Shown piece by piece: positions 10,297 through 27,304 of a stretch of DNA of 64,000 bases. The notes below the pieces were generated by a model that ran no database searches, was not told where the DNA came from, and saw only the letters and a program-made list of their open reading frames with translations. Position numbers and translations under genes: made by a program. Source of the DNA: Cognatiluteimonas profundi (GTDB lineage Bacteria; Pseudomonadota; Gammaproteobacteria; Xanthomonadales; Xanthomonadaceae); NCBI RefSeq assembly GCF_009792795.1, contig NZ_VKHQ01000003.1, positions 611,601-675,600 of the forward strand, in the 5' to 3' direction. The stretch's first letter is position 1; each line of letters starts with the position of its first letter.

Positions 10297-11451
10297 TCAG
10301 CCTCGCCTGTGCGGGCGCTTGTGCGGGTCGACGACAAAACGTTCGTCCTCGGCGGCCGCCAGTCCCGACAGGAACATCGACGGCAGGATCAGGAACAGCA
10401 GGAAGCACGAGGCGTAGCGAATGCCGCTGCCTGGGTTGTAGATGCCGAACGGCACGTAGGAAACGAGCATCACCGCGACCGCCGGCAACCAGCCCAGCAC
10501 CAGGATCTTGCGCACGATGCCGCGCGGCGACCTGCGCAGCGCCACGTTGAGCGAGTACAGCAATACGAGGACCACCGTCAGGCCCGACAGCAGGAACGGC
10601 AGCATCACCGGGCGAGCCATGACCTCGCCGGGTGTCGGGCCCACCAGCGCGAGCGGCAGCGTCCACCACAGGCTCTTGAAGAATCCCGCGGTGGTGTCGA
10701 TGTTGATCCACGTCCGGGTCGTGTCCGACGCAATGGTGAAGAAGGTCTTCGCCTTGGGAAGCACGTCGTTGGCGATGTAGTCATCGACGGTTGGCCACAC
10801 GGCCAACAGCACGATCGTCGCGATCGCCGCGAACGCCAATGCCTGGACACCCGCGCTCAATGGCGTCCGCGGTCCCCACGCATAAAGCAGGAACATCAGC
10901 AGGAACAAGCCTGCACCCATGCCGAACGGCGCGCGGATGAACGTCATCCCGGCCACGCACACCAGCGCCAGCAACAACCGATGGAACCCCCTCTTCAGGA
11001 GGTAACCGACCACTGCGCCCATGAAGAAGCCGAGCAGGCCGATGAACAGCGATTCGCGACCGATGACCGATGCCCACACACCGAAATTCGGCAGCAACAG
11101 GATGGCCAGCAGGGGCCATCGGTAGCGGTCGTGCACCTTCGCCTGGGTGATCAGGTAACACACGCCACTGGCCGCGAACAGCGAGTACACGAGGTGCGCC
11201 AGCAGGTCCACGTGGACGATTCCCATCAACGTGGTGGCGATGAGGGTGATGAACCGGGTGCGGGCATCGCCGGTCTCGTCGTACGCGCCGGTCAGGTAGG
11301 AGTTGGCGTCGCCGAGTTGGCTGAAGTGGCTGTAGACGAAAACGGAAAACAGCGTCCAGCAGATGAAGATCGCGTAGGTACTGGCCAGCGTCAGCCGACG
11401 GGGCTGTTCGACCTCCCGCTCTTCAATGATGTCGATGGGCTCCAGGCGCAT
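10297..11451 (-). CDS. Polytopic inner-membrane protein of the polysaccharide locus (possible Wzy-like role)
   Basis: 384 residues with about ten hydrophobic segments. No clear O-antigen ligase motif was found, so naming it a polymerase is only positional inference: the locus has Wzx, Wzc and Wza analogues but no other Wzy candidate. ATG 11451 with AAGGCGAC is preferred. A GTG at 11529 that overlaps the flippase stop (GTGA) has a good GAGAGGA, but the 26 codons it adds (several TTT, TCA, TAT, CAA) do not match the GC-rich third-base use of real genes here. An RGIVRKILVLG loop and an acidic, charged C-terminus are visible. Confidence 0.75.
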   Translation of the reverse strand: MRLEPIDIIEEREVEQPRRLTLASTYAIFICWTLFSVFVYSHFSQLGDANSYLTGAYDETGDARTRFITLIATTLMGIVHVDLLAHLVYSLFAASGVCYLITQAKVHDRYRWPLLAILLLPNFGVWASVIGRESLFIGLLGFFMGAVVGYLLKRGFHRLLLALVCVAGMTFIRAPFGMGAGLFLLMFLLYAWGPRTPLSAGVQALAFAAIATIVLLAVWPTVDDYIANDVLPKAKTFFTIASDTTRTWINIDTTAGFFKSLWWTLPLALVGPTPGEVMARPVMLPFLLSGLTVVLVLLYSLNVALRRSPRGIVRKILVLGWLPAVAVMLVSYVPFGIYNPGSGIRYASCFLLFLILPSMFLSGLAAAEDERFVVDPHKRPHRRG

Positions 11452-11525
11452 GTCGCCTTGATACGGCCCGTTGCGTGACAGAGCCGTAAATGAATGCGAA
11501 AAATCCGCCGGGTTCTCGGGTCCGT

Positions 11526-12908
11526 TCACACAGCGTTTCCTCTCGCGGCTTTCTCGTTGCGACGCCTGTGGAAGCGCCGGACGCCCAGCATCGTGCCCAG
11601 CAGCAGGACGGCCTCGCCGGCAACGGTTGCCCACGCCGCACCACCGCCGCTGTAGCGGGGAATCAGCAGGACGTTCAGCACGATTGCGACGACGGTTGCC
11701 ACGCCCATCGCATACACGCGATAGCGCATGTGGTCTTCGGTCAGCAACGCCGAGCCCATGGCAGTCGACAGGAAGCGGATCGGCGGACACAGCGCCAGGA
11801 TGTACAGGATGTCGATGACGCCGCGATAGCGTTCGCCGAAGACAATGGGCACGATCCAGGGGGAGACCACCACCAGCGCAACGCTCACCGCGATGCCGAG
11901 CAGGAACATCGCCACGTTGCCCTGGCGGTACACGGCCCAGAACTTCGGCACGTCATGCGCCGCCCAGCGGTGCAGCTTCGACATCAGGTACTTCTGGTAG
12001 ATGGTCGCCGGAATCAGGTAGATCGCCGTCATGATCGCCAGCGCGATGCTGTACATGCCGGCCTGCGCATCGCTGTGCAGGTACTTGAGCAGGATCGTGC
12101 TGATCTGGAAGAAGACCGGATACAGGATCGCGAACACGCCATAGGCCCAGGCCTGGGACCAGAGCTCGCCGATTCGCGGATGCGGTCCGGCCGGCACGGC
12201 CGCGGCTTCGCGCGGCCCGTGCCCATGCAGGTCCATCTCCCCCCGCATCATCCGGCGGATGTGCGGAAACGCCGAGCCGAAGACGAGCAACGCGATCAGG
12301 CTGTAGCTGACTGCAACGAACTTGCCAGTCAGCTGCGGCACCAGCAGCAACGACAGCGCCACCACCAGCCGGCTCGCCGGGATGGCCATCTGCCACAGCG
12401 CCATTTCCCCGTAACGCTCCTCCAGGCGCAACTTGTTGCTCATCAGGTCGATGGCCAGGAAGCTCAGCACGACGGGCGACAGCACCACCAGTGCGAAGCG
12501 GGTTCCGTTGGCGGGCGCGACCAGCACCGCCCAAGCGATGATGATGGCGAATGCGACCAGGGTCGTGCCATGGGTGAAGCGCAGCGACGGGGTCAGCCAG
12601 CGATTGGCGCCCCATCCCTCAACGCCGTAGGCCTTGAGGCGGAACTGCGTGAGGCCGAAGCCTGCCAGCGGCGCGACCATCGTCACAGTCGCCAGCGACG
12701 AGGCGAACAAGCCGTACGCCGACGGCCCCAGCTCGCGCGCAAGCAGTGTCTGCGTCGCGAAAACCATGCCCGCGCCAAGGGCCGTCGCCACGCCGAGCAT
12801 GGAAACGGTCGTCAGTGCCCGGCGCCAGCCAGGGATCATCCTGAAGCCGGTGCGGCGGGTGATCGAGGCCGAGGCAGCGACCAGCCCAGCCGCGAAATCT
12901 GATTTCAT
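11526..12908 (-). CDS. Wzx-like polysaccharide flippase (MOP superfamily)
   Basis: 460 residues with 12-14 predicted membrane helices and the RELGPSAYGLFA segment typical of polysaccharide transporters of the MOP/Wzx family. ATG 12908 is chosen because AGGA sits 9 bases upstream; the frame runs further to 12995 without support. It would flip the undecaprenyl-diphosphate-linked repeat unit to the periplasm. It is followed by the polytopic protein at 10297-11451. The stretch 12909-13074 upstream holds a GC-rich inverted repeat that may end the preceding beta-helix transcript. Confidence 0.88.
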   Translation of the reverse strand: MKSDFAAGLVAASASITRRTGFRMIPGWRRALTTVSMLGVATALGAGMVFATQTLLARELGPSAYGLFASSLATVTMVAPLAGFGLTQFRLKAYGVEGWGANRWLTPSLRFTHGTTLVAFAIIIAWAVLVAPANGTRFALVVLSPVVLSFLAIDLMSNKLRLEERYGEMALWQMAIPASRLVVALSLLLVPQLTGKFVAVSYSLIALLVFGSAFPHIRRMMRGEMDLHGHGPREAAAVPAGPHPRIGELWSQAWAYGVFAILYPVFFQISTILLKYLHSDAQAGMYSIALAIMTAIYLIPATIYQKYLMSKLHRWAAHDVPKFWAVYRQGNVAMFLLGIAVSVALVVVSPWIVPIVFGERYRGVIDILYILALCPPIRFLSTAMGSALLTEDHMRYRVYAMGVATVVAIVLNVLLIPRYSGGGAAWATVAGEAVLLLGTMLGVRRFHRRRNEKAARGNAV

Positions 12909-13074: not shown

Positions 13075-14214
13075 TTACTTGTAGAAGTTGGATCCGATCG
13101 TCACGTTGGTCGCCGTGCTCCTGATCAGCATGTCACGCGAGACCTTGCTGTTATATCCGGTCAGGTAGAAATCGACGCGGTCCTTGTTGCCCAGGCGACA
13201 GTAATTGTTGAAGGAGACATTGTTCTTCATCGTCAGGTTGCTGCCGCTGTAGAACTGGACGCCCGTGGCCGAATTGTTCTGCACCAGGCTGTTCTGCACC
13301 GTCACCTGCGAGCATCCCAGCGTGACCACGCCACAGCTGCCATTGCTCTCGATCGTGCACCCATCAAGGTTGATGTTGGAGGCGCGCTTGTAGATGTTGA
13401 TGCCGTACTTGGCATTGTTGTTCAGGCGGCAATTCTGGATCAGGATGTTGTAGGCCGGATCGGTGTTGTCCGGCTCGATGTCGATCCCGCATTCCGGACT
13501 CGTACCCTTGGTGTAGGAAAATTCGCTGTCATGGACCTGGACGTCGTGGCACCAGGTGAGGCTGAGTCCCTGGCGGCGGTTCTGCGTCGAGACGACATTG
13601 GCGATCACCAGGTCGGAGGTGTTGCCGCCGGTGCAGATGCCGTCGCCGGCGCACTTGCCAACCCACAGGTCGCGGATGGTGACGCCGGTGCAGCCGATGA
13701 TCTGGATGCCATGGTTCCATTCCGACGTACTGGTGCTGACATAGGTGTGCGTGTCGCGATCGCCCATCAACTGACCACCGGCGATCTCCACCTGCGTGCG
13801 CTTGCTGGCAAACAGGATGTAGGCGCGGATGGCCGAGTTGGACTTGGCCTTGAGGATCGCATTGGGATCCATGTTGAGCAGCATGTAGCTGCGCAGGTTG
13901 ATCTTCCTGGTCGGATCGATCAGGTAGGTTCCGGCCGGGACGTTGACGGTGCCGCCTGCCGCCGGTAGCGCATTGATGGCCGCCTGGAACGCCGCCGTGT
14001 CATCGTGGATGCCGTCACCGACCGCGCCATAGGTCTTGACCGACAGGACCGTGGTTCCGCGGGTACGGGTTGGTGGGACATAAGTGGATGCGGCGGCGGG
14101 CAGGCTGATCCCGCCCAGCACGAGGGGAACGCTCAGCAGGACGGAATTGCGCAGGAACTGACGACGGGGCATGCCTGCATTGCAGATCCCAGACAGCACT
14201 TGTTGCTCTTTCAC
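13075..14214 (-). CDS. Tat-exported right-handed beta-helix protein (pectate-lyase-3-like), paralog 1
   Basis: 379 residues from GTG 14214, chosen for the strong GGGAGG five to six bases upstream; an inner ATG at 14172 starts directly at the twin-arginine motif. MPRRQFLRNS plus a hydrophobic stretch and AAAS form a Tat signal. YGAVGDGIHDDTAAFQAAI opens a pectate-lyase-3/GH28-like parallel beta-helix, with NVPAGTYLID shortly after. The family motif NRRQGLSL (about 212-219), then DSEFSYTKGTSPECGIDIEP, is shared with the three neighbouring paralogs. It would act in the periplasm or outside on a polysaccharide as lyase, hydrolase or epimerase; which one is not decidable. Confidence 0.82.
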   Translation of the reverse strand: MKEQQVLSGICNAGMPRRQFLRNSVLLSVPLVLGGISLPAAASTYVPPTRTRGTTVLSVKTYGAVGDGIHDDTAAFQAAINALPAAGGTVNVPAGTYLIDPTRKINLRSYMLLNMDPNAILKAKSNSAIRAYILFASKRTQVEIAGGQLMGDRDTHTYVSTSTSEWNHGIQIIGCTGVTIRDLWVGKCAGDGICTGGNTSDLVIANVVSTQNRRQGLSLTWCHDVQVHDSEFSYTKGTSPECGIDIEPDNTDPAYNILIQNCRLNNNAKYGINIYKRASNINLDGCTIESNGSCGVVTLGCSQVTVQNSLVQNNSATGVQFYSGSNLTMKNNVSFNNYCRLGNKDRVDFYLTGYNSKVSRDMLIRSTATNVTIGSNFYK

Positions 14215-14638
14215 GGAAACCTCCCTCATGGCGCACTTGGCGTGCAGCCGGACACCGGTGGATGACAGCGGAATCACGCGGTTTTCACACCGGCCGGACC
14301 GGCCCCTGTTCCCATGTCAAGGCGGTGTGAACGTGACGTGGCCGAATCTAGCGAACGTCGCGCGCTTGTCATGCACCAATTCGCCGAACTGTGCGCTGGC
14401 TCAACAGTTCACATCGTGGATCGCGCATTCATCTTGTGATTGCGGCCCCTGGCATCCATGCAGCGCCGTGCATGCACCACACTTTGCGCAGCGCCGCGAA
14501 AAGGCCCGAATCCGGGCGCGCTGCACCTGGCCTGCGGGAGCTGGCATCCAGCGTCGCCCCGGGTTGCATGCGGCCACAAAAAAAGGGGCGTTGCTGCCAA
14601 CGCCCCTCGTCATGGTCCCCGCCACGTTTACGCGGCGG
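14215..14638. other. 424-bp intergenic region between beta-helix paralogs 1 and 2
   Basis: Non-coding leader of paralog 1 and tail of paralog 2. It holds the paralog-2 terminator (14578-14606) and, nearer paralog 1, an 8-bp inverted repeat TTCACACC (14284-14291) / GGTGTGAA (14324-14331). The duplicated upstream element found in front of paralogs 2 and 3 was not seen here. No small gene could be supported. Confidence 0.6.
14578..14606 (-). terminator. Rho-independent terminator of beta-helix paralog 2
   Basis: On the minus strand GGGGCGTTG, loop GCAG and CAACGCCCC form a 9-bp stem followed by seven T. It lies about 30 bp beyond the stop of the gene ending at 14639. A textbook intrinsic terminator; it isolates paralog 2 from paralog 1. 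Confidence 0.9.
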
Positions 14639-15811
14639 CTACTTGTAGCTGTTCGTCTGGATGGCGATACCGCCGACCGTGCCCCGGATCAGGATGTCGC
14701 GTTCGATCTTCGACGCCCACCCCGTCAGGGTGAAGGGTGTACGGGTCTTGATGCCACTGCGGGTGTAGTTGCCGTAGGACACCCCACCGGTCACGTTGAC
14801 GCTCGACGATCCGTCGCGGATGAAGATGCCCGTCGCCGAGTTGTAGCGCACCGTGTTGCCGACGAAATGGATGCCGGAACAGTAGTTGGTGACAGCCCCG
14901 CAGCTTTCGTTCCGCTCGATGGTATTGCCCGTCAGCGTGACGTTGCTGACGCGCTTCCAGATGTTGATGCCGTACATGGCGTTGTACTTGAGGCTGCAAT
15001 TCTGGATCACGATGTCGTAGGCGGTGCTGGTGCCATCGGGCTCGATGTCGATGCCGCACTGCGGGCTGGTGCCCTTGGTGTAGCTGAACTCGGAGTTGTA
15101 GACCCGGATGCCGTTGCAACGGGTGAGGGACAGTCCCTGGCGGCGGTTCTGGGTGGACACGATGTTGGCGATGACGACGTCGCTCGCCCCGCCACCCAGG
15201 CACACACCGTCACCGGCGCACTTGGCCACGTACAGGTCACGCACGGTGATGTGGCTCCCGCCGTTGATGCCAATGCCGTGGTTCCACTCGGAGGTGCTGC
15301 CACTGACGTAGTGGTGCGTATCGCGATCACCGATCAACTTGCCGCCCGCGATCTCGACGTTGGTGCGGCCGGTGACGTTCAGGATGTAGGAGCGCGTCGC
15401 TGAATTGGTCTTCGCCTTGAGCGTGGCGTTTGGATCCATGTTGAGCAACATGTAGCTGCGCAGGGTGATCCGCTTCGTCGGGTCGATCAGGTAGGTGCCT
15501 GAGGGGATGTAGACGGTGCCGCCGGTGGACGGGAGCGAATTGATCGCTGCCTGGATGGCCGCGGTATCGTCGCTGGTGCCGTTACCGAGGGCGCCGTAGT
15601 TCTTGACGTTGCGGTAGGCGGTACCGCGGGGGCGGGGGGCCGGGGCATAGGCGGCAGCGGCCGAGAAGCTCACGCCTCCCAGGACCAGCGGCACTGTCAT
15701 GACCATGGAGTTGCGGAGGAATTCCCTGCGGGGCATGTCGGAGCCGCGCGAGCTGGGCACGATTTCGTTTTGATTGACCAATTTTTTGAATCCTGGGCTG
15801 GCGCCGGACAT
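14639..15811 (-). CDS. Tat-exported right-handed beta-helix protein, paralog 2
   Basis: About 390 residues. The start is uncertain: ATG 15811 is given, TTG 15781 has AGGA nine bases upstream, and ATG 15736 begins at the Tat motif MPRREFLRNS. The twin arginine and VPLVLGGVSF core are nearly the same as in paralog 1. YGALGNGTSDDTAAIQAAI starts the beta-helix. The signature STQNRRQGLSL and then NSEFSYTKGTSPQCGIDIEP are retained; IERNESCGAV and repeated Asn-rich coils follow. This is the closest relative of paralog 1. It has its own upstream region (repeat copy A) and its own terminator, so it is a separate transcription unit. Confidence 0.82.
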   Translation of the reverse strand: MSGASPGFKKLVNQNEIVPSSRGSDMPRREFLRNSMVMTVPLVLGGVSFSAAAAYAPAPRPRGTAYRNVKNYGALGNGTSDDTAAIQAAINSLPSTGGTVYIPSGTYLIDPTKRITLRSYMLLNMDPNATLKAKTNSATRSYILNVTGRTNVEIAGGKLIGDRDTHHYVSGSTSEWNHGIGINGGSHITVRDLYVAKCAGDGVCLGGGASDVVIANIVSTQNRRQGLSLTRCNGIRVYNSEFSYTKGTSPQCGIDIEPDGTSTAYDIVIQNCSLKYNAMYGINIWKRVSNVTLTGNTIERNESCGAVTNYCSGIHFVGNTVRYNSATGIFIRDGSSSVNVTGGVSYGNYTRSGIKTRTPFTLTGWASKIERDILIRGTVGGIAIQTNSYK

Positions 15812-15855
15812 GAACAACCGACGTCTTCTCATGGGATTGGGCCTGGGCGGCCCAG

Positions 15856-16028
15856 CGAACCACGACACGAACGGAAAGACGTAAAGGAATGTCTAATCCA
15901 CGTGAAAACGTGTGCGGCAGAGCCTACTGGGCAGTTCGGGCCGTCGTGCAAAGAAAATGTAAAAAGCGCGCGAAGGTCACGGTCGTGACAGCCGCTTCTT
16001 CAGTTTCAATGCAGGTTGCTGACTACGC
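15856..16028. repeat. Duplicated upstream regulatory region, copy A
   Basis: Shares with 17426-17595, in the same order, CGAACCACGnCACGA, CCACGTGAAA, TGCAAAGAAAA followed by a GTnAAAnGCGCG block, GCCGCTTCTTCAG and TGACTACGC. Spacing differs by only a few to ten bases. Copy A includes a perfect small palindrome CACGT-GAAA-ACGTG (15899-15912). It sits directly upstream of paralog 2 on the minus strand, so it probably carries promoter and operator sites. Confidence 0.75.
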
Positions 16029-16065
16029 GGTTTGCACATTGGTGAATGCGCGTCCCGGACAACGG

Positions 16066-16090
16066 AAAGCCCCGGGGCGACCGGGGCTTT
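16066..16090 (-). terminator. Hairpin after beta-helix paralog 3
   Basis: AAAGCCCCGG, loop GGCGA and CCGGGGCTTT form a 10-bp perfect stem 28 bp beyond the stop of the gene at 16118-17233. The T-run is only three bases on the minus strand, followed by CCG, so efficiency is uncertain. Confidence 0.65.
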
Positions 16091-16117
16091 CGCGCTGAAA
16101 CAGGCGCGGGAACAGGG

Positions 16118-17233
16118 TTATTTGTAGAGGTTGGAACCGATGCTCAAGTGCTGCGTGTTGGACGGCTGCTGGATGTCACGGGAAATCGCAGACTTCCATC
16201 CGGTGTAGGAGAAGTCGGGGCTACGGTCGAGGGCGGCGCCCTTCGTGCGGTTGTTGTAGAAGGTGTTCCCCGAGATGTAGATGTAGTCACCGTAGTAGAG
16301 CGCGATGCCCGGGGCGTAGTTCTGCTGCACGACGTTGTTGGTGTAATGGATGTTGTTGGTGCCGGTCTTGCCGTTGACCACCATGCCGTTGCGGCCGTTG
16401 TATTCGATCAGGCACTTGGTCACGGTGACCTGGGACACATTGCTGACGCAATGGACACCGTCCTTGGCATTGTGGTGCAACCAGCAATTCTCGATGTGCA
16501 CGTTCTTGCACGTATAGGTGCCGAGCGGCTCGATGTCGATGCCGAACTCCGGCGCGGTGCCCTGCGTGTAGCTGAACTCCGAGTCGTAGACGGCGATGTT
16601 GCTGCACAGCGTCAGGGACAAGCCCTGGCGGCGGTTGTGGGTCGAGATGATGTTGACGAACATCACGTCGTCCGACCCGCCACCAACGCAGATCCCGTCG
16701 CCCGTGCACTCCGCGATCCGGATGTCGCGGATCGTCAAGCGGTCGCCGTTGGCGATCTGGATGCCATGGTTCCACTCATCCGTCGAACCGGATGCGTACT
16801 TGTGCGTCGCGCGGTCGCCAATGATCTGGCCGCCAGCGATCTCGACTTCCGAGATGTTGTTGATGTAGAGGACGTAGGCGCGCTTCACGGACGACGTCTT
16901 CGCCTTCAGCGTCGCACCATCGGCCATCTGCAACAGCATGTTGCTGCGCAGCCGGATGCCCATGGTGGTGACGGTATCGATCATGTAGGTGCCGGCCGGG
17001 ATCGCGACCGTGCCCCCAGTGGACGGCAGGCTGTTGATCGCGGCCTGGATGGCCTTGGTGTCGTCGGTGGATCCGTCACCCTTGGCGCCATAGTCCTTGA
17101 CGTTGCGAACGGTGGTCCCGCGCTTGCGGGACGTCGGGATGAAGCCGGAGCTGACGATTGCGGAGAAGGCCGGGGCCACGGCGATGGCGCAGGCAGCGGC
17201 GATTGCGGAGGTCAGGAACTTGCGACGATGCAT
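16118..17233 (-). CDS. Tat-exported right-handed beta-helix protein, paralog 3
   Basis: 371 residues from ATG 17233 (MHRRKFLTSA), with a GAGAG element about eleven bases upstream. The twin-arginine signal is followed by an alanine-rich core ending near AFSAIVSSG. YGAKGDGSTDDTKAIQAAI marks the beta-helix entry, and IPAGTYMIDT the first strand pair. The signature appears as STHNRRQGLSL and DSEFSYTQGTAPEFGIDIEP. Compared with paralogs 1 and 2 the residues after GIDIEP diverge (NVHIENCWLHHNAKDGVH), suggesting a different substrate subsite. It has its own upstream region (repeat copy B). Confidence 0.82.
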   Translation of the reverse strand: MHRRKFLTSAIAAACAIAVAPAFSAIVSSGFIPTSRKRGTTVRNVKDYGAKGDGSTDDTKAIQAAINSLPSTGGTVAIPAGTYMIDTVTTMGIRLRSNMLLQMADGATLKAKTSSVKRAYVLYINNISEVEIAGGQIIGDRATHKYASGSTDEWNHGIQIANGDRLTIRDIRIAECTGDGICVGGGSDDVMFVNIISTHNRRQGLSLTLCSNIAVYDSEFSYTQGTAPEFGIDIEPLGTYTCKNVHIENCWLHHNAKDGVHCVSNVSQVTVTKCLIEYNGRNGMVVNGKTGTNNIHYTNNVVQQNYAPGIALYYGDYIYISGNTFYNNRTKGAALDRSPDFSYTGWKSAISRDIQQPSNTQHLSIGSNLYK

Positions 17234-17624
17234 GGAATTGGGTTCTCTCGGGAGTTGGACAGACAGCGTGTCCATCAGGGGGATGAGTTGCGGGAAGATT
17301 CATGGCAAGGCATCCAAGCCCCGCGCGCCTTGGGCACGAGTTCTGTGTTGATCAGCAAAGTCACCGCACCCCAGGTTGTGCCGACTGCTGCCGGCGCCTC
17401 GACGTATTCAGTCCAAACGGACCATCGAACCACGCCACGATCGAGCTGCGGATCGACGTTTATCGATGTCGAGCCCACGTGAAAGCGCGGACCGTGAGGC
17501 TACGGTCCACTGTCGAGTCCAATGCAAAGAAAACGTGAAAGCGCGACGGCGGTACGGCCGCTTCTTCAGCGTTCATCCATGTAACTGACTACGCCTTTCG
17601 GACGACGCCAGCCCCCTGAGGTCG
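17234..17624. other. 391-bp intergenic region with promoter-like repeat copy B
   Basis: Upstream region of paralog 3 and tail of paralog 4. It carries repeat copy B at 17426-17595, within which ACGTGAAAGCGCG occurs twice exactly (17477-17489 and 17533-17545). No believable gene and no clear terminator for paralog 4 were seen. Confidence 0.6.
17426..17595. repeat. Duplicated upstream regulatory region, copy B
   Basis: Second copy of the element at 15856-16028, upstream of paralog 3. Conserved blocks are CGAACCACGCCACGA, CCCACGTGAAAGCGCG, ATGCAAAGAAAACGTG, GGCCGCTTCTTCAG and TGACTACGC. The 13-bp word ACGTGAAAGCGCG appears twice, 56 bp apart. The duplication probably arose together with the duplication of the beta-helix genes. 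Confidence 0.75.
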
Positions 17625-18722
17625 TCAGCCCCCGCCGACGTTGTCTGAAAACGTGACGCCGTGGGCGTCATCCGCGACGTGCACCTGCCTTCTCCACGCA
17701 GGCGTAGCGGTATCGCGTGCAGCACCCGCATTCAGCGTTTCCATCCCGTTCGCGTCGAACTGGTTCCCGCGGATCTCGACCCCGACCGCGTTCCCGCGCA
17801 GCGAAATCCCCGGCTGTCGATTGTCATGAATGCGGTTGCCTGCAATCACCGAGTCCCTCGCCCCCACGACAACGATGCCTGGCGCCTGGTTTCCCGCGAT
17901 GGTGCAATCGGCAATCGTGACGCCCCAGACCCGCCTGTACACCTGGATGCCGGGGCCGCGGTTGTTCCGCACCAGGCAGCGCTCGATGCGGATGTCGCCT
18001 GCGTCGGAGGGCGAATCAGGCTCGATGTCGATCCCCGCCTGCGGTGCCGTGCCGCCTGTGTCGCTGAATTCGGAGTCGTAGACGCGCACGTTCTGCGATC
18101 GGCCGATGGTGAGCCCTTGTCGCCGGTTTCCCACGCACACCACGCGCGCCACGACCACGTCCCGGCTCGTCGGCACGGGACGGCCAGGCCGCGACGCATC
18201 CGCACCGATGGAGATCCCGTCTCCCCAGCAACGGGAAATCCGGATGTCGCGAATGGTCACCGCCGATGAACCACGGGACGTGAGGCCATGCCCCCACTCG
18301 CCGCCGAGCCCCAGGTGCCGATCGCGATCTCCGACGATCGCGCCACCGGAAACCTCGACGTCGTGCGCATCCTGGATCAGGACGACGTACGCGCGCTCGA
18401 GCGCATTGCTCTTCGCCACCAGTGTCGCGCCCGGTGCCAGCTGCAGGTGCATCCGGCTGCGCAGGCGCAGGCTGCGCGCCGGGTCGACCAGGTAGTTGCC
18501 CGGCCCGACGCGCACGGTCCCGCCATCGGACGGCAGGGCGTCGACGGCGCGCTGCAACGCCAGCGTATCGTCGTGGACGCCGTCGCCACGCACGCCAAAA
18601 TCCCGAACATCCAGTTGCGCCGCTCCCCTCGCCCGCATCGGCACGAGAGTGGCCGCCGCTCCGACGCGGGCCGATGCCAGTGGCGAAAGCAAAGCGGCAT
18701 ACAGCAGCTGCCTGCGCTGCAT
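17625..18722 (-). CDS. Exported right-handed beta-helix protein, paralog 4 (most divergent)
   Basis: 365 residues from ATG 18722 (MQRRQLLYAALLSPLASA), a Tat-like signal with twin Arg. A GTG at 18761 overlaps the stop of the upstream ligase-like gene (GTGA) and could be the coupled start. FGVRGDGVHDDTLALQRAV begins the beta-helix. The signature is present as GNRRQGLTI and DSEFSDTGGTAPQAGIDIEP, so the presumed active-site residues are kept although the rest is divergent and richer in Arg and Asp. Unlike paralogs 1-3 it lies in the same operon as the two asparagine-synthetase-like genes, which links the two families functionally. Confidence 0.82.
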   Translation of the reverse strand: MQRRQLLYAALLSPLASARVGAAATLVPMRARGAAQLDVRDFGVRGDGVHDDTLALQRAVDALPSDGGTVRVGPGNYLVDPARSLRLRSRMHLQLAPGATLVAKSNALERAYVVLIQDAHDVEVSGGAIVGDRDRHLGLGGEWGHGLTSRGSSAVTIRDIRISRCWGDGISIGADASRPGRPVPTSRDVVVARVVCVGNRRQGLTIGRSQNVRVYDSEFSDTGGTAPQAGIDIEPDSPSDAGDIRIERCLVRNNRGPGIQVYRRVWGVTIADCTIAGNQAPGIVVVGARDSVIAGNRIHDNRQPGISLRGNAVGVEIRGNQFDANGMETLNAGAARDTATPAWRRQVHVADDAHGVTFSDNVGGG

Positions 18723-18757
18723 GCCGACGTTTCCCAGCACGCGTTCGTCGCGATCCG

Positions 18758-20302
18758 TCACGGACGTGGCTGGTCGTCGGCCGGTTGCCCGGCGATCCAG
18801 GGCAGGACCACGGCAAGCAGGTAGAACTTCGACGCGTGGTACTTGTTGTCCAGCCGGCACCGGTTGCGGTCCAGCCAGTCGACGGCACCGGGCAACACGT
18901 CGCGGGCCTCCTGCGCGAACCCACGGACGCGGTCGAATCGCTGCCTGGCCAGGCCGCAAAGGTCGAAGCGGAAGCTGCCCTTCCTGGCGACATACGGCAA
19001 CACGCCGAACCGTTCGGCGATGTGCCTGCGCACGAGGACCTTGTTGACCTTCGCCACCGGATCGATCATCTGCTCACGCGGAACGTTGTTGTAGACCCAC
19101 TCGCGCAGGTCGTGGTCGCACAGCGGATAGGCTGCATGGATCCCCATCGCATCGGTCGTGTAGAGACCCTTGGCGAAACCGGCGGCAGCGCCCGAGATGG
19201 ACATGCTGATGACGCGCAATTCGTCGTGGCTGGTCGCGGAGCAAATCTCTGCCTTGAACGGATTCAGGCGCTCGCGTGACCTGGATGCGATCTTCATGCC
19301 GAACAACGCATCAACCTCCGCATCGGTGAAGCGCGAGCCCGGGAAGATCCGCTCGATGGGGTCCATCTGCACGGTGCCGAGCAGATAGCACAGCTTGAAG
19401 TTGTGCCCGATCAAGGGCAGCTCCGAGATCGCCGGAGGCAGCCGCAGGCCCCGCGCCAGCCAGTACAGGAATTTCTTGCGCGCCTGCGCTGGCGCGCCGA
19501 AGTAGCTGTCGGAACCCATGCCGTCGATGATGCCGTCGCCGCCGTTGGCCGCGACTTCGGTGGCGAGGTCCGCGTAGGACAGCAACGCGAAATCGGCCGT
19601 CAGGAGCGGCATCCTGTGCGCGATCGCCACATAGCGGTCATAGGCCCGACCCGGCTCGCACACGAGGGCCTCGTGCCGAAGCCCGAGTCTCCTCGCCACG
19701 AATTCGGCCGATGCGAGTTCGTTCTCCTCGGGGCCGCCCAGGTATGTGATGCAGGTGGTGTCCGGCCTGGTTTCCGCGATGGCGATCGCCATCGTCGTCG
19801 AATCCTTGCCTCCGCTTTGCAGCAACCAGGGCGTGCGGAGCTCCGCACAGGATCTCGTCACCGCCTCGCACAGCAACCGGTGGTAGGTGGCCACGAGGTC
19901 CTCGTCGATCTTGCCCGCCTCGCTGCTCTTCCCCGCATCGCGGAACCGGTAGTGGAACTCAGGATCCGCCTGCATGTCGTGGTGGGGGAAAAATCCGAAC
20001 GTCGCGAGCTTGACCTCTTCGTAGATCGAGTGCGGTGGATAGACGAAGGCATTGCGCAGCAGGTCGGCGACCGAAACAGGATCGATCTTCGTGCGCTGCG
20101 ATCGCGCATCGATGCTGGCGAAATCCGGTTTGCCGTAATAAGGGGACATGGCGATCTGCATGTTGCCGGTCGGCATGGAATCCCCGACCGGGGTCGTCGG
20201 CCCTATGCGAGCCAGCGGCGCCGGCTGGAGGGTGGCGCGTGCCGAAGTCGCGCCAGTGATGCCGGCATTCAGTGGCAGCGTACCGGATGTTTCCCTCGTC
20301 AT
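18758..20302 (-). CDS. Asparagine-synthetase-like ATP-dependent ligase without glutaminase domain, paralog a
   Basis: 514 residues from ATG 20302, which overlaps the upstream stop (ATGA) and has GGAG six bases ahead. The C-terminal two thirds match the synthetase half of AsnB: PP-loop SGGKDST at 163-169 for AMP-forming activation, CITYLGGPEENE and DGIIDGMGSDSYFG. The N-terminal glutaminase half is missing: no Cys2 nucleophile and only about 110 residues before the synthetase domain, including LLRNAFVYPPHSIYEEV like the AsnB interdomain segment. It could adenylate a carboxylate (for example a uronic acid) and couple it to ammonia or an amine. Such a role in polysaccharide amidation is inference from location. 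Confidence 0.8.
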   Translation of the reverse strand: MTRETSGTLPLNAGITGATSARATLQPAPLARIGPTTPVGDSMPTGNMQIAMSPYYGKPDFASIDARSQRTKIDPVSVADLLRNAFVYPPHSIYEEVKLATFGFFPHHDMQADPEFHYRFRDAGKSSEAGKIDEDLVATYHRLLCEAVTRSCAELRTPWLLQSGGKDSTTMAIAIAETRPDTTCITYLGGPEENELASAEFVARRLGLRHEALVCEPGRAYDRYVAIAHRMPLLTADFALLSYADLATEVAANGGDGIIDGMGSDSYFGAPAQARKKFLYWLARGLRLPPAISELPLIGHNFKLCYLLGTVQMDPIERIFPGSRFTDAEVDALFGMKIASRSRERLNPFKAEICSATSHDELRVISMSISGAAAGFAKGLYTTDAMGIHAAYPLCDHDLREWVYNNVPREQMIDPVAKVNKVLVRRHIAERFGVLPYVARKGSFRFDLCGLARQRFDRVRGFAQEARDVLPGAVDWLDRNRCRLDNKYHASKFYLLAVVLPWIAGQPADDQPRP

Positions 20303-21696
20303 GCAGTCTCCGGCTTGTGCGTGTGCTCGACGATCCACGGAAGAACGATCGCCAACAGGTAGAACTTCGACGCGTGGTACTTGTTGTCGAGCAGGCTGCG
20401 GTTGCGCTCGAGCCATCGCGCCGCACCGGGCAGGACGTCGCTGGCCTGGCGTGCAAAGGCATGGACCTGGTCGAAGCGCGCGCTGGCCAGGCCACACAGG
20501 CTGAAGCGGAAACTGCCCTTGGCGGCCACGTAGGGCAACTCCCCGAAGCGCGTGGAAATATGCTCGCGCACCAGCACCTTGCTGAGCCTGGTGGCGGGAT
20601 CCACCTTCTTGTCCAGGGGAACCTCGTCATACACCCAATCGCGAAACTGGCGGTCGCAAAAAGGAAAGGCAATCTGCATCGACAGCGCGTTGGTCGTGTA
20701 GATGCCCTTGCCGAAGCCGCCGGTGGCGGCAGCTATGGACAAGGAGATGTCGCGCCACTCATCCAGGCTCGATGCCGACGCCAGCTCCGGCTCGAACAGG
20801 CCCAGCCGCGCCCTGGATTCCTGCGCGACCTGCCGCCCGAACAGCGCGTCCACTTCGTCGTCGGTGAAGCGCGACCCCGGGAAGACGCGCTCGACCGCGC
20901 GCATCTGCAGCGTGGACAAGGCATAGCAGAGCTTGAAATTCCGCCTGACCAGCGGCAATTCGAAAATGGAGGGCGGCAGGCGGATTCCGCGCGCAAGCCA
21001 GAAGAGCATGCGTTGCTGCAGCTTCACCGGTGTCCCGAAATAGTTGTCCGATCCCAGGCCGTCGATCACGCCGTCGCCGCCGTTGCGCGCGATCTCCGTG
21101 GCCAGGTCCACGTAGGACAGCAGCGCGAAGTCCGCGCTGAGCAGTGGCATGCGGTCGATAAGGTCGAGGTAGCGGTCGTAGGCACGGCCGGGATCGCATA
21201 CCAGCTGCTCGTGGCGCAGGCCCAGGGTCGCCGCGACGTGGGTCGCCGAAGCGACCTCGTTCTCCTCGGTTCCTCCCAGATAGGTGATGCAGGTCGTATC
21301 GGGTCGGGATTCGGCCAGCGCGATCGCCAGCGTGGTGGAATCCTTGCCTCCGCTCTGCAGCAGCCATGGGGATTGCATGCCTTCGCATGCGCGCGCAGTC
21401 GCCTCGCACAACAGCCGATGGTAGTTGCCGACCCAGTCCTGCTGCCCACCGTCGACGGCCTTGCTCTGTCCCTGGTGGCGAAAATCGAAATGAAATTCCG
21501 GGGCGCTGTCCATCTCCTGCTGGGGAGTGAAACCGAGCGGCAGCTGCTTGACTCCTTCGAGCGTGGAGTGCGGGGCGAAGACGATCGAGTTGCGCAGGAT
21601 GTCGGCAACGGAAACCAGGTCGATGTCGCCGGCAAGCTTGCCGGCAAGCCGGGAAAAATCCGGCTTGCCGTGGTAAGGCGACAAGTTGACGTGCAT
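20299..21696 (-). CDS. Asparagine-synthetase-like ATP-dependent ligase without glutaminase domain, paralog b
   Basis: 465 residues from ATG 21696 with AGGGGA about seven bases upstream. It is clearly homologous to its downstream neighbour over the whole length: SPYHGKPDF near the start, LLRN-like region, PP-loop SGGKDST at 115-121, CITYLGGTEENE, DGVIDGLGSDNYFG and DNKYHASKFYLLA at the end. Like paralog a it lacks the N-terminal glutaminase domain. The tandem arrangement with ATGA overlap suggests recent duplication and co-production, perhaps as a heterodimer or for two different acceptors. Substrate is unknown. Confidence 0.8.
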   Translation of the reverse strand: MHVNLSPYHGKPDFSRLAGKLAGDIDLVSVADILRNSIVFAPHSTLEGVKQLPLGFTPQQEMDSAPEFHFDFRHQGQSKAVDGGQQDWVGNYHRLLCEATARACEGMQSPWLLQSGGKDSTTLAIALAESRPDTTCITYLGGTEENEVASATHVAATLGLRHEQLVCDPGRAYDRYLDLIDRMPLLSADFALLSYVDLATEIARNGGDGVIDGLGSDNYFGTPVKLQQRMLFWLARGIRLPPSIFELPLVRRNFKLCYALSTLQMRAVERVFPGSRFTDDEVDALFGRQVAQESRARLGLFEPELASASSLDEWRDISLSIAAATGGFGKGIYTTNALSMQIAFPFCDRQFRDWVYDEVPLDKKVDPATRLSKVLVREHISTRFGELPYVAAKGSFRFSLCGLASARFDQVHAFARQASDVLPGAARWLERNRSLLDNKYHASKFYLLAIVLPWIVEHTHKPETA

Positions 21697-21739
21697 GCGT
21701 CTTCCCCTGCGGCGAATCGCCTGCGGGCAATGCGCCCGG

Positions 21740-23995
21740 TCAGGCCGCATTGCTCTTGGCGGGGAGGTACTCGTAATAGCTGTACGCATAGCGGCCCGCG
21801 CTGCGCTTCTGGACGCCATTGAAGATCGCGCCCTTGACCTCGACCCCGTTCTGCTCGAGTCGCTGCTTGGCCAGGGCGATCTCGCGCTGCTGGTTGAGCC
21901 CGAAGCGGACGACCATCAGGCAGGTTCCCGCCTGGTGGCCGATCACCGCGGCGTCGGTCACTGCCAGCACCGGCGGCGTATCGATCACCACCACGTCGTA
22001 CAACGGGGCGAGCTGGTCGAGCAACTCATGGAAATTCGGATGCATCAGCAATTCGGACGGGTTCGGGGGAACCTCGCCGCGCGCGATGAAGGACAGGTTC
22101 TCCGCACCCGCGACACGCCGCACCGCGGCCGCCAGCGGGATCTGCCCGGAGATCAATTCCGACAGGCCATTTTCCGAACGCGCGCCCATGGCATGGTGCA
22201 GCGTGCCGCGTCGCATGTCGGCGTCGATCAGCAGCACCCGCTGTCCGGCCTGGGCCATGGTGACGGCCAGGTTGGCGCAGACGAAGGTCTTGCCGACCCC
22301 GGGGCTCGGCGCGGTGATCATCAACACGTTGTTCTTGGTCTTGAACCGCGCGAAGTGCAGGCTGGTGCGCAGGCTGCGCAACGCCTCCATCGCCAGGTCC
22401 GTGGGTGCCTTCAGCGCGAGCAGGCGCTGGTGCGTCCCACCGCCGATGCGTCCCTGCCCGACCGAGAGCTCACGACCCTTGTCGCTGTAGGGGATCGATG
22501 CATAGACCGGCAGGCCGAGCAGCTCGATGTCCACCGGATCCTCGACGCCGCGACGCAGCATCTGCTGCAACAGCACGAAGGCGACCATCAACAGCGCGCC
22601 GAGCACCGTGGCGCCGGCAACCACCGGGATGGGCTCGGGCCATGCCGGGTTCTCGAGGTCCACGGCGGCCGGATCGATGATGCGCACATTGCCGATCGCG
22701 CTGGCGCGGGCGATGTCCAGCTGCTGCGCCTGGTCGAGCAGGTTCGCGTACGTCTGGTTGGTCACCTCGACGTCGCGGCTGCGCCAGAACAGGCCCTGCT
22801 GCGTGTCAGGCAGTCGTTCGATCTCGCTCTGGATGGCGGCCTTCGCGCGCTGGAACTGCGCGATCTGCCCCGCCACCGCCTTGTACGCCGGGTGTTGCGG
22901 GGTGAAGCGGCTCGCGAGGTCCGATTGCTGCACGCGCAACTGGTTGATGTTGGTTTCCAGCGCGACACTCTGGTCCAGCAGCGCCTTGTTCTGGACGCCC
23001 ACGTCCAGCGTCCGCGTCTGCGACTGGAATGCAGTCAGGGCCGATTGGGCCTTCGACAGTTCGTCGCGCACCTTCGGCAACTGCGCCTTGACGAATTGCA
23101 GGCGCTTGGCGGCCTCGGCGGAATTGCGCGCGATGTTCTGGCTGACGTATGCGGTGCTGACCTGCTCGAGGATTTTTTTGGCGAGCAATGGATCGGCATT
23201 GTCGTAGCGCAGCTCGATGATGCCCGAATCGCGGCCCTGCTCGACTGCACTGATGTCCCTCTTGAGCTTGTCGAGGATGACCAGGGAATTCAGGTGGGTC
23301 ACGTCGAAATAGGTGCCAGGATTGGCCTGCAGCACGTCGACCTTGGAAGTGACACCACCACCGCTGGCGACTTCCCCAACGCGGCCTTCGAGCAGGCGCG
23401 TGCCATTGTTGTCCAGCAAGGTGTAACTGCCCTGCTCACCGGCAACCAGCCGCAGGGGGATATCGGTCATGTCGTCGGGAACATCCAGCGTCCCGAATTG
23501 CACGCGCTCGCCTCCCCATCCGTAGCTGCTGAGCCCGAACCACGGCGATGCAACCTGCCCGACCTGGTCCGGCGTATAGCGACGGGCAATGAAGCTGCCG
23601 ATGAGGGGGAAGCGCCTTGGCTGGACTTGGATATCCAGGTTGAGCGCATTGACCGCATCGATCAGCACTTGCCTGGAAGTCAGCAGCTGGATCTCGGTCG
23701 ACGCCGGTGCATCCTGCGCGGTGGTCGTCTGGCCCGATTGATTGTTGGACAGGCCCGGCACCGTCGGCGTCTTCTTTTCGACCTGCACCACCGCATTGGC
23801 CTCGTACTGCGGAGTCGCGAGTACCACGTACAGCACGGCCACGAGCACGAACAGCGCCGTGCCCATGAGGATCAGTCGCTTGTGGTCGCCCAGTGTCGCC
23901 AGCAGCGTGCGCAGGTCGATCTCGGCGTCGCGCATTGAAGGCGCGGCGTACGAGGGAGAAGGCGATGCCAACTTCGGGGTCAGGTGGGTGGCCAT
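21740..23995 (-). CDS. Wzc-type chain-length determinant / BY-kinase
   Basis: 751 residues. First membrane helix at about 41-60, long periplasmic Wzz domain with coiled coil (about 230-400), second helix before about 490. The cytoplasmic tyrosine kinase carries Walker A SPGVGKT (564-570), Walker A' VLLIDAD (about 587-593) and Walker B VVVIDTPP (about 668-675). The C-terminal tyrosine cluster YAYSYYEY is the usual autophosphorylation site. It would control polymer length and open the Wza-like exit pore, with the phosphatase at 26790-27224 resetting it. ATG 23995 begins MATHLTPK; no strong Shine-Dalgarno was seen. Confidence 0.93.
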   Translation of the reverse strand: MATHLTPKLASPSPSYAAPSMRDAEIDLRTLLATLGDHKRLILMGTALFVLVAVLYVVLATPQYEANAVVQVEKKTPTVPGLSNNQSGQTTTAQDAPASTEIQLLTSRQVLIDAVNALNLDIQVQPRRFPLIGSFIARRYTPDQVGQVASPWFGLSSYGWGGERVQFGTLDVPDDMTDIPLRLVAGEQGSYTLLDNNGTRLLEGRVGEVASGGGVTSKVDVLQANPGTYFDVTHLNSLVILDKLKRDISAVEQGRDSGIIELRYDNADPLLAKKILEQVSTAYVSQNIARNSAEAAKRLQFVKAQLPKVRDELSKAQSALTAFQSQTRTLDVGVQNKALLDQSVALETNINQLRVQQSDLASRFTPQHPAYKAVAGQIAQFQRAKAAIQSEIERLPDTQQGLFWRSRDVEVTNQTYANLLDQAQQLDIARASAIGNVRIIDPAAVDLENPAWPEPIPVVAGATVLGALLMVAFVLLQQMLRRGVEDPVDIELLGLPVYASIPYSDKGRELSVGQGRIGGGTHQRLLALKAPTDLAMEALRSLRTSLHFARFKTKNNVLMITAPSPGVGKTFVCANLAVTMAQAGQRVLLIDADMRRGTLHHAMGARSENGLSELISGQIPLAAAVRRVAGAENLSFIARGEVPPNPSELLMHPNFHELLDQLAPLYDVVVIDTPPVLAVTDAAVIGHQAGTCLMVVRFGLNQQREIALAKQRLEQNGVEVKGAIFNGVQKRSAGRYAYSYYEYLPAKSNAA

Positions 23996-24127
23996 GTTTC
24001 GATTACCGGGAGAAGAAGTGGTTGAGGGGCGTTTGCAGCCGTGTGGCGACCCTGAATGCAGTCGCCGACCCAAGGCAGTGGACGCATAAGGGTGTCGACG
24101 GGGCGTCAATCCCGATCGTCGCGGATG

Positions 24128-26542
24128 TCATGACGCTTCCCTCAGGCCTTCCACGACCGGCCGGATCTGCACGGGGGGCATCAGTCGGTTGGTCGCCGGG
24201 GCAGGCGGCATTTGCCGCAGGTTGGCGAGCGCGTCCGCGATGCGCTGGCTGGCGTCGCGATGGGTGGTACGAAGCCCGACCGACTGGCCGGCAGTGGCCT
24301 GGTTGGCGAGCAGCCGAAGCAGGCTGGCGGCAATGGCATGTTGCTGGATGCCGACACGGCTGACGTTGCCCGCGTCGATCGCCGGCGAAACGCCCGACTG
24401 CTCCTGCACCAGCAGCACCGGCGTGCCGAACGCCGCCACCTCGAAGGCGAGGTCGCTGGAGTCGGCGAGGATCACGCTGGCATGGTTGAGCAGGTAGGCG
24501 AAGCTCAGGTAATCGGTCGGTGCGATGAGGTGCACGTTCGGGTACTCGCGCATCTGCTCCTTCAGCTCCGCAATCGACACCGTGCGCTCGTCGATCGGAT
24601 ACACGATGTCGACATCCGGGCGACGTGTCGCCACGGCCATCAGCGCATGGCAGATCGGTTCGAATGCGTCATTGATCGGCGCGTCGCTGGCACGTCGACG
24701 ATGCAGTACGGGGAATTCCTGATAGCTCGGCTTGCCGTCCGAATTGCCGAACTGCATGCTCTCGCGGTCGGCCATCAGCACCAGCGGGCTGCCTTCGCGC
24801 AGGAATGCGAAGCACTGGCCCAGGTGCCTGGCGAGGATCTCGTCCTGCCGGATTCGTTCCGCGGCGGTGCGCAACGTACCCATTGTCGTATTGCCCGAAA
24901 CGACGATGCGCTCGGCGGGTACACCCTGCGCCTGCAATCGCTCACCGGCGGACTCGCTCGGGGTGAAATGCAGCGAAGCCAGTGTTCGGGTGACCTTGCG
25001 ATTGGCATCGTCGAGCCGGTCGGCGGCAGGCCGGGCCTGCGCCCCGCCCGGCTCGATGGAGACGACGGGAATCTGCTGGTAGAACGCAGCCAGCGTCGTC
25101 GCAAGCGTAGTCGACGTATTGCCGGGAACCAGCACCACGTCGGGCTTGAAATCGTTCAGCACGCGCTTGATGCCCCCCAGGGCGCGCGACGCGATGTCGG
25201 CGGGGTCCTGTCCGGGACTTGCGATTTCCAGATGCATGTCCGGCTCGATTCCAAACAGGCTCAACACCTGCTCCGGGGTCTGGTCCGGCTGGGCTGCCAC
25301 GCACACACGCATATCGAACCGTGCATCGCGTGACAACTCCTCGATGATCGGCGCAAGGCGGATGGCGTCGGGCGGCGTTGCCATCACGCACAGCGTCTTC
25401 AGCACCCCCGATGGCGAAGCGGCCCGCGCCACCGGCTTGCCGGCCAGCGACATCGCCGCTGGCCCAGGCGACTGGTGCGCTCGATTGTCCTGGTCACGCT
25501 CCTGCAGGTACTTGCACAGCACCTCCAGCACGCGCTGGAACCGCAGCACGTACAGCGCCATGATCGTGGCGAACACGAGGAGGCTGACGGTCTCGGGCGC
25601 ATTGCGCAGCGCATAACCGACCAGGGCGAGGACGCCAGCGCCCATGACGATGCAGGCCAGCGTCACCCGCGGCGTGCAGCCTGTGTCCTGCAGCAGGTGA
25701 TGCAAGTGCTGGCGATCGGGCTTGAACGGAGACATCCCGTTGCGCATGCGGCGCACCATGACGGCCAGTGTGTCCATGACCGGCAGGGCCACGCACCACA
25801 AGGCATCGACCGGGGCGATCCGATCCACACCGCGATGGCTCAGGAACACCAGGCTCCAGGCCAGGAGGAATCCGATCAGCGTGCTGCCGGCATCGCCCAT
25901 GAACACCTTGCGTCCGTCCGGCCACCCCATGTTGACGCAGAGGTAGGGAATGAGCGACGAGAACAGGACCTGCAACAGCAGCGTCACGCCAAGCACGGGG
26001 AGGCTGGCATTGCCGAACAGCATGATGGCGCCGATGCTCACCATCGCCAGGCTTGCCGCCAGGCCGTCGATGCCATCGAGCATGTTGAACGCGTTGATCA
26101 GGCCGATCACCGCGATGATCGTCACCGGGATGCCGATGACACCCAGCTCCAGCCCGTGCCCGCCGAAGATCTGACCGGTGTGATCCAGGTAGATGCCCGA
26201 TGCGGCAATGACCATGCCGGCGGCGCAGGTCTGGATGATCAGTCGCGAGCGGACGCTGAGGTCATGCAGGTCGTCCACCATGCCGGTCATCACGATCAGC
26301 GCGCAGGGCACCAGCAGGCTCGCGACGAAGCGATCCACGTAGCCCAGGTAGAAGAACCCGACGACTGTTCCGAGGAAGAAGCACAGCCCGCCCACGAGCG
26401 GTACGCGTCCGCGGTGGCGCTTGCGGCCATCGGGACGATCAACGAGCCCGAGCCGGCGCGCCACGGGGCGCATCGAGAAAAGTGCGAACAGGGTAACGGC
26501 GAGCGAAATCGCGCTTGCAGCCACCAGCTTTGCATCATCCAT
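24128..26542 (-). CDS. WecA-type phosphoglycosyltransferase fused to a degenerate WecB-like epimerase domain
   Basis: 804 residues from ATG 26542 (GAGG five bases upstream; the ATG at 26563 lacks one). Residues 1-340 are an intact polytopic polyprenyl-phosphate sugar-1-phosphate transferase: DDLHD 90-94, NAFNMLDGIDG 150-160, MGDAGS 215-220 and HLHH 279-282. It should start the lipid-linked repeat unit. After a 40-residue linker, about 381-780 follow UDP-GlcNAc 2-epimerase (WecB) colinearly. However, FGTRPEA has become MATPPDA, HGDTT is PGNTS (N475), PEEANR is LDDANR, TGHRRE is MADRES and DSGGIQEE is DSSDLAFEV. Most WecB catalytic residues are therefore gone. The domain may bind nucleotide sugar or be regulatory. 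No frameshift is seen. Confidence 0.85.
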   Translation of the reverse strand: MDDAKLVAASAISLAVTLFALFSMRPVARRLGLVDRPDGRKRHRGRVPLVGGLCFFLGTVVGFFYLGYVDRFVASLLVPCALIVMTGMVDDLHDLSVRSRLIIQTCAAGMVIAASGIYLDHTGQIFGGHGLELGVIGIPVTIIAVIGLINAFNMLDGIDGLAASLAMVSIGAIMLFGNASLPVLGVTLLLQVLFSSLIPYLCVNMGWPDGRKVFMGDAGSTLIGFLLAWSLVFLSHRGVDRIAPVDALWCVALPVMDTLAVMVRRMRNGMSPFKPDRQHLHHLLQDTGCTPRVTLACIVMGAGVLALVGYALRNAPETVSLLVFATIMALYVLRFQRVLEVLCKYLQERDQDNRAHQSPGPAAMSLAGKPVARAASPSGVLKTLCVMATPPDAIRLAPIIEELSRDARFDMRVCVAAQPDQTPEQVLSLFGIEPDMHLEIASPGQDPADIASRALGGIKRVLNDFKPDVVLVPGNTSTTLATTLAAFYQQIPVVSIEPGGAQARPAADRLDDANRKVTRTLASLHFTPSESAGERLQAQGVPAERIVVSGNTTMGTLRTAAERIRQDEILARHLGQCFAFLREGSPLVLMADRESMQFGNSDGKPSYQEFPVLHRRRASDAPINDAFEPICHALMAVATRRPDVDIVYPIDERTVSIAELKEQMREYPNVHLIAPTDYLSFAYLLNHASVILADSSDLAFEVAAFGTPVLLVQEQSGVSPAIDAGNVSRVGIQQHAIAASLLRLLANQATAGQSVGLRTTHRDASQRIADALANLRQMPPAPATNRLMPPVQIRPVVEGLREAS

Positions 26543-26647
26543 GTGCGCCTCTGCAATCGCCATTCACGTTGGCCATCGGGGCGTGCGGAACCGCCTGTCC
26601 GCCCCGGCCTGTCTTGCATCCGGATGTTGCGTCGCCAGCGGGTAGCC

Positions 26648-26789: not shown

Positions 26790-27224
26790 CTACAGGCGGG
26801 AATGCCAGCTGTCGACCGCCTCGCGGATCATCGTGTAGGCCTTTTCGAAGGCAGCCCGGTCGCGACCATAGGGGTCTGGAATGGGCACATCCCCCTGCCA
26901 GCGGCCCAGGAGGAAGGTCTTCCCCCGTGCGTGCGGAGCCAGCGCCTGGATGGCCGACACATGGCGCCGGTCCATGGCGATCACCATGTCGGCGGCGCTG
27001 ATCATGTCCTGGGACACCTGCCGCGCCACATGACCCGCTGCCGACAACCCGTTTGCCGCGAGGACCGATTCGGCCATCGGGTCGATGGACTGCCCAACCA
27101 GTGCCGCCAGGCCGGCGGACTCGACCTGCTTGTCCTTGCCACGCAAGCGATCGCGCAACAGGTATTCGGCGGTGGGACTGCGGCAGATGTTGCCGACGCA
27201 CACAATCAGGACGCGGTTGATCAT
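26790..27224 (-). CDS. Low-molecular-weight protein-tyrosine phosphatase (Wzb-like)
   Basis: 144 residues, the normal length. The P-loop CVGNICRS supplies the nucleophile Cys9 and Arg15 (CX5R). The general acid is Asp117 in IPDPYG. It would dephosphorylate the tyrosine cluster of the BY-kinase encoded at 21740-23995, a pairing required for polymer production in many capsule systems. It is the first gene of the polysaccharide locus in reading direction and starts about 55 bp after the tRNA-Thr terminator, so the locus promoter should lie in or near that interval. Confidence 0.93.
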   Translation of the reverse strand: MINRVLIVCVGNICRSPTAEYLLRDRLRGKDKQVESAGLAALVGQSIDPMAESVLAANGLSAAGHVARQVSQDMISAADMVIAMDRRHVSAIQALAPHARGKTFLLGRWQGDVPIPDPYGRDRAAFEKAYTMIREAVDSWHSRL

Positions 27225-27277: not shown

Positions 27278-27304
27278 AAAAAAAAGCCCGCGCAAGCGGG
27301 CTTT
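27278..27304 (-). terminator. Rho-independent terminator downstream of tRNA-Thr
   Basis: On the minus strand AAAGCCCGC, loop TTGC, GCGGGCTTT and a further run of T form a textbook intrinsic terminator. It lies about 55 bp beyond the 3' end of the tRNA and ends its transcript before the polysaccharide locus. Confidence 0.92.

Follow-up and report, generated by a model that had tools for sequence, protein, structure and literature searches.

In the window, by which we mean the whole 64,000-nucleotide stretch of Cognatiluteimonas profundi DNA analysed here, a single minus-strand ORF joins a WecA-type phosphoglycosyltransferase to a WecB-like domain, with Pfam assigning Glycos_transf_4 to residues 81–240 and Epimerase_2, in two stretches (181 bits), from residue 409 onward. 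An earlier note on this DNA had described one uninterrupted gene, and that description was borne out; an assembly or frameshift artefact was rejected, as 61 genomes show the identical architecture. The ORF reaches back to an ATG at 26563 (811 aa), but we preferred the ATG at 26542 because the nearest homologue shares AHMDDAKLVAAS at that point and AGAGG lies ahead of it. Residue numbers for the parts of the fusion follow the 811-codon ORF, and substitutions in the WecB-like part are given in E. coli WecB numbering. The features of the locus are as follows.

24128..26542, minus strand: whole WecA–WecB-like fusion gene, 804 aa from the ATG at 26542
25529..26542, minus strand: WecA-type polytopic phosphoglycosyltransferase domain, residues 8–345 (PF00953, TIGR02380 just below cut-off, invariant motifs, modelled helices)
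25406..25528, minus strand: linker, residues 346–386, of which 364–384 are predicted to be disordered (pLDDT under 50); median dN/dS above both flanking domains
24866..25405, minus strand: WecB-like N-terminal Rossmann domain, residues 387–566 (R10P, D95N, E131D; E117 and R135 kept)
24269..24865, minus strand: WecB-like C-terminal Rossmann domain, residues 567–765 (H213R, SGG altered; S290 and E296 kept)
24209..24268, minus strand: C-terminal helix, ASQRIADALANLR, about residues 766–785, retained also in members that have lost the C-terminal domain
26790..27224, minus strand: Wzb-like low-molecular-weight tyrosine phosphatase (PF01451), upstream neighbour, synteny conserved with the fusion
21740..24109, minus strand: Wzc-like tyrosine autokinase/chain-length protein, downstream neighbour, synteny conserved with degenerate fusions
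18758..21819, minus strand: two tandem AsnB-like paralogues (PF00733, Asn_synthase), glutaminase domain not detected, downstream
27283..27304, minus strand: terminator-like stem and T run between ispH and the phosphatase gene, a consensus match only

The WecB-like domain occupies residues ~387–785 and is followed by a short tail, whilst its C-terminal Rossmann domain carries an extra low-confidence loop at ~604–632. As a terminator-like stem lies between ispH and the phosphatase gene, the phosphatase, fusion and Wzc genes may form a transcription unit of their own. More broadly, positions 6935–27224 of the window resemble a Wzx/Wzy-type exopolysaccharide locus, with Wza-like, DUF218, GT4, flippase-like, Wzc, WecA and Wzb components. 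The polymerase of this locus may be a 497-aa protein encoded at 10297–11790, for which neither Pfam nor NCBIfam gave a match, and four consecutive right-handed β-helix/pectate-lyase-like proteins are encoded within the polysaccharide cluster at 13075–18959.

The WecA half has the hallmarks of a polytopic phosphoglycosyltransferase: membrane helices are seen in the full-length model of the fusion, and the DD (97–98), NxLDGIDGLA (NMLDGIDGLA, 160–169) and HxHH (HLHH, 286–289) motifs are all in place. It scored 105 bits against PF00953 and 295 bits against TIGR02380, for which the cut-off is 326. The motif residues were invariant across 44 aligned fusions, in agreement with the earlier description of an intact polyprenyl-phosphate sugar-1-phosphate transferase, and the half can thus be regarded as an active-looking enzyme. 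The WecA of the enterobacterial common antigen pathway is of the same polytopic type and also has the Asp-rich and HxHH motifs, but it is single-domain, with WecB encoded by a separate nearby gene. Separately, we observed a 1134-codon open frame (L237:2285–5686) with WecA at its end and ~750 unmatched codons ahead; a second domain was looked for in this ORF and none was seen, and the extra frame is probably merely an open frame in GC-rich DNA.

The second half aligned with E. coli WecB (1f6d) at an E-value of 7.6e-66, far above chance, with ~34–35 % identity over the whole domain and the same order of elements. An AlphaFold model of the domain (pLDDT 81.6, pTM 0.82) returned 1f6d as its best Foldseek match, with a TM-score of 0.85 by target length, and has the two-Rossmann, GT-B-like fold of the WecB/MnaA family. 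In the model of the full-length fusion the parts were good and the packing of the two halves was not fixed (pTM 0.54). Unlike WecB/MnaA epimerases, however, the domain is fused to WecA and evolves much faster than working WecB, and it lacks the complete set of residues to which putative catalytic (Asp95, Glu117, Glu131, His213) and substrate-binding (Arg10) roles have been ascribed (PMC11464976), having N, E, D, R and P, respectively, at these positions. Alignment with E. coli WecB therefore confirmed what had been noted before, that only Glu117 of the five is kept, and all of the listed motif changes were present (FGTRPEA to MATPPDA, HGDTT to PGNTS, PEEANR to LDDANR, TGHRRE to MADRES and DSGGIQEE to DSSDLAFEV). 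The window protein additionally keeps R135, S290 and E296, which are absent from the earlier note, and has R in place of K15. Judged from its residues, loss of catalysis in the WecB-like domain is well supported, and the domain would be expected to be without epimerase activity.

Using the window protein as query, we found the fusion in 61 of 397 sampled Lysobacteraceae (Xanthomonadaceae) genomes. A search started from an intact fusion found no WecA–WecB fusion outside the family in a 250-genome sample of the order and a 369-genome sample of the class, where the matches outside the family were to WecA or WecB as single proteins. The fusion frames were open over at least 600 codons in every family member but L107 (G048); this was considered as a truncated form and rejected, as its contig stops within the gene. 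Eighteen genomes carry a canonical WecB half, 66–70 % identical to E. coli WecB and with every motif intact, whilst in 43 genomes from 12 genera, including that of the window, this half is degenerate and 26–36 % identical (41 % over the L107 fragment). Named species, which were found by an alignment-based contig scan (a scan with a single-protein query returned none), were Lysobacter enzymogenes (L152) and Luteimonas salinisoli (L154) for the intact form, and Lysobacter dokdonensis (L151) and Lysobacter sp. MMG2 (L150) for the degenerate form. It is from these relatives that the family name of the sampled genomes is taken.

Both the two-domain architecture and its substitutions therefore recur in relatives. 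Arg10 was lost in all 42 degenerate members that could be scored, H93 was replaced by P in 35 of 42, H213 was retained in only 3 of 34 and the SGG motif was mostly lost. Other positions were largely kept, with R135 retained in 41, an acidic residue at 117 in 39, an acid at 132 in 37 and D95 in 28 of the 42. No degenerate member kept more than three of R10, D95, E117, E131 and H213. One near-basal degenerate fusion (L052:1027–3414) keeps three of these (D95, E117 and E131), and may represent an intermediate stage on the way to lost catalysis. The earlier note had held that homologues of the fusion with intact catalytic residues would count against its reading. Such homologues do exist, in the 18 genomes of a sister clade, and none was found inside the degenerate clade; they explain the ancestry of the window protein and do not refute the loss of catalysis in its own clade.

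A tree of the WecA halves was constructed from the fusions and their closest single-domain relatives (sister families, Dyella and Rhodanobacter), with other gammaproteobacterial WecAs as root. The fusions formed one clade (support 97/93) and the degenerate members one branch (96/86), with the intact fusions as its weakly supported sister (71/73). In a tree of the WecB halves, made by a quick method and containing long branches, one split divides the standalone WecBs from every fused domain (96), another unites the degenerate domains (100), and the intact fused domains lie between the two. By these trees both halves of the window protein share ancestry with the intact bifunctional fusion; two independent fusions are unsupported by the WecA tree with its nearest single-domain relatives and by the domain tree. 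Because both trees point to one fusion clade and one degenerate branch with intact domains intermediate, the simplest account would be one fusion with a working WecB followed by one later loss of catalysis. WecA and a working-type UDP-GlcNAc 2-epimerase would thus have been fused once in the Lysobacteraceae. In the intact branch, wecC lies directly downstream, and the pair would convert UDP-GlcNAc to UDP-ManNAcA; the other branch lost the catalytic residues, lacks an adjacent wecC and spread over at least 12 genera.

The intact fusions (those of L. enzymogenes, Luteimonas salinisoli and relatives) share with the window protein the domain order, the WecA clade and nearby Wzc and Wzb genes, but differ in the order of the locus as well as in their complete catalytic residues. 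Intact loci read phosphatase, Wzc, fusion and WecC, placing Wzc upstream, whereas degenerate loci read Wzb-like phosphatase, fusion, Wzc-like kinase and AsnB-like. In those degenerate loci that were retrieved over a sufficient length, AsnB-like genes lie downstream of Wzc; beside intact fusions none was found. WecC (NF008286) was detected in 18 of 18 intact versus 6 of 43 degenerate genomes (Fisher 1e-10, relatedness ignored). All six of the latter carry a separate intact WecB, and the 31 degenerate genomes that have no strong separate WecB are also without WecC. Losing the catalytic residues thus goes hand in hand with lacking the UDP-ManNAcA route. In the window genome WecC was not found, and the window fusion has neither the complete WecB catalytic set nor an adjacent wecC.

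Pairwise NG86 estimates for 13 pairs of degenerate members, made in GC-rich genomes, gave a median dN/dS of 0.13 for WecA, 0.19 for the N-terminal half, 0.29 for the C-terminal domain, 0.40 for the linker and 0.52 for the tail, compared with 0.01 for the N-terminal half in intact pairs. As these values are mostly well below 1, the domain is under purifying selection and thus constrained, though more loosely than working WecB. The WecB-like domain was never wholly lost in the clade, and its N-terminal Rossmann domain is present in every degenerate member. Eight members, at four places in the tree, lack E. coli positions ~176–355, such that the N-terminal domain joins directly to the last helix (typically DACxRIxEALAxLR). 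These correspond to four separate in-frame removals of the C-terminal Rossmann domain along the domain border. The earlier statement that fold and length are preserved thus holds for the window protein, with its domain model and match to 1f6d, but not across a clade in which eight relatives are without half of the domain. When truncated members were included, conservation at first seemed confined to the N-terminal half; this was toned down, as the set of full-length members shows partial conservation of the C-terminal half (mean column identity 0.47 versus 0.58 for the N-terminal half). In members that retain it, the C-terminal domain is accordingly not a mere passenger.

The reading that we favour, with a probability of roughly 60 %, is that the window protein combines an active-looking WecA with a pseudoenzyme accessory domain that would serve in oligomerisation, docking or regulation. 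For this reading speak the single fusion clade with its single degenerate branch, the position of the intact fused domains in the domain tree, the loss of Arg10, the scarcity of WecC, the constraint, the four domain-precise excisions, the retained fold and the invariant WecA motifs; against it stand the packing of the two halves, which the full-length model does not fix, the degree of conservation of the C-terminal domain where present, the reliance of dN/dS on pairwise NG86 in GC-rich genomes, and the kept acid at 117, R135 and, often, D95, which could reflect retained ligand binding. Once ManNAcA was no longer made, the N-terminal Rossmann half and the C-terminal helix may have become a structural part of WecA, and the retained domain would support oligomerisation, docking or regulation on the cytoplasmic side, next to the Wzc/Wzb phosphorylation pair encoded alongside. 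A parallel is offered by the large monotopic phosphoglycosyltransferase WbaP, an initiating enzyme whose cytoplasmic domain is non-catalytic, brings about its dimerisation and serves as a sensor of uridine nucleotides (PMC10942596). The catalytic folds are unrelated, however, and the accessory domains differ, with WbaP pairing a monotopic catalytic domain with an N-terminal accessory domain and the fusion a polytopic Glycos_transf_4 with a WecB-like domain. For EpsZ, a regulator protein has been proposed to activate the enzyme via dimer promotion (PMC12802240). More tentatively, the epimerase half of the bifunctional enzyme may have become, across this whole lineage, an allosteric regulator of a polytopic phosphoglycosyltransferase. 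It would then govern how undecaprenyl phosphate is committed to exopolysaccharide, as a convergent counterpart of the accessory domain of WbaP.

A rival proposal, which we consider unlikely, is that the cleft, though no longer catalytic, has kept its affinity for a uridine nucleotide or UDP-sugar and tunes WecA, much as has been reported of the WbaP accessory domain and its own enzyme. The residues kept in the window protein (R135, S290, E296 and E117, with R replacing K15) and the constraint on the C-terminal domain where present are consistent with this, as is the finding that UMP, UDP and UTP stabilise the WbaP accessory domain and that UMP inhibits WbaP (PMC10942596). Sensing of nucleotide sugar, as raised in the earlier note, is nevertheless weakened by the universal loss of Arg10 and the predominant loss of H213 and SGG, and by four lineages that excised the C-terminal, UDP-side half and kept the remainder; it may still apply in full-length members such as the window protein. 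The domain might, instead, be a slowly decaying relic without a role, persisting since clean deletion is rare or since its loss would destabilise the mRNA or the membrane protein. In almost all degenerate pairs its rate of evolution exceeds that of WecA, and it also outpaces intact WecB; several partial deletions have occurred, and nowhere is a full catalytic set left. We regard such decay as quite improbable, however, given a dN/dS that does not reach 1 and that the linker of the same genes exceeds in most pairs, an ORF that is open in 43 of 43 genomes and a domain that is never wholly lost, with excisions that follow the domain borders and retain the last helix. The earlier judgement that catalysis is lost, clade-wide as it proves, and that decay is unlikely is thus upheld.

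Two further suggestions of the earlier note, presentation of substrate to WecA and a new activity, found no direct support. A new enzymatic activity could rest on what is left of the acidic cluster (95, 117 and 132) and on Arg135 of the N-terminal domain, whose retention counts speak for it. No newly fixed polar set resembling an active site was seen, though, the cluster varies in the window protein itself (N at 95) and the neighbouring genes suggest no substrate, making this very improbable.

Searches of an open-access library turned up no paper on the WecA–WecB fusion or on its degenerate counterpart; fusion with a pseudoenzyme domain is of a known kind, and the instance of WecA with a degenerate WecB appears to be new. 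It also constitutes an annotation trap. The degenerate domain scores 232 bits with TIGR00236, the NCBIfam wecB equivalog, over the cut-off of 210, so that the window protein would be named a working UDP-GlcNAc 2-epimerase, leading to wrong ManNAc predictions in genomes without another such enzyme; in the window genome, no other Epimerase_2 was found besides the fusion gene. Since its intact and degenerate branches both survive, along with four natural half-domain excisions, the family offers a traceable case of an enzyme domain kept after its pathway was dropped. Moreover, as polytopic phosphoglycosyltransferases have been listed as 'PGT only', without an accessory domain (PMC10942596), such a domain on a polytopic initiating enzyme would open a new mode of regulation.
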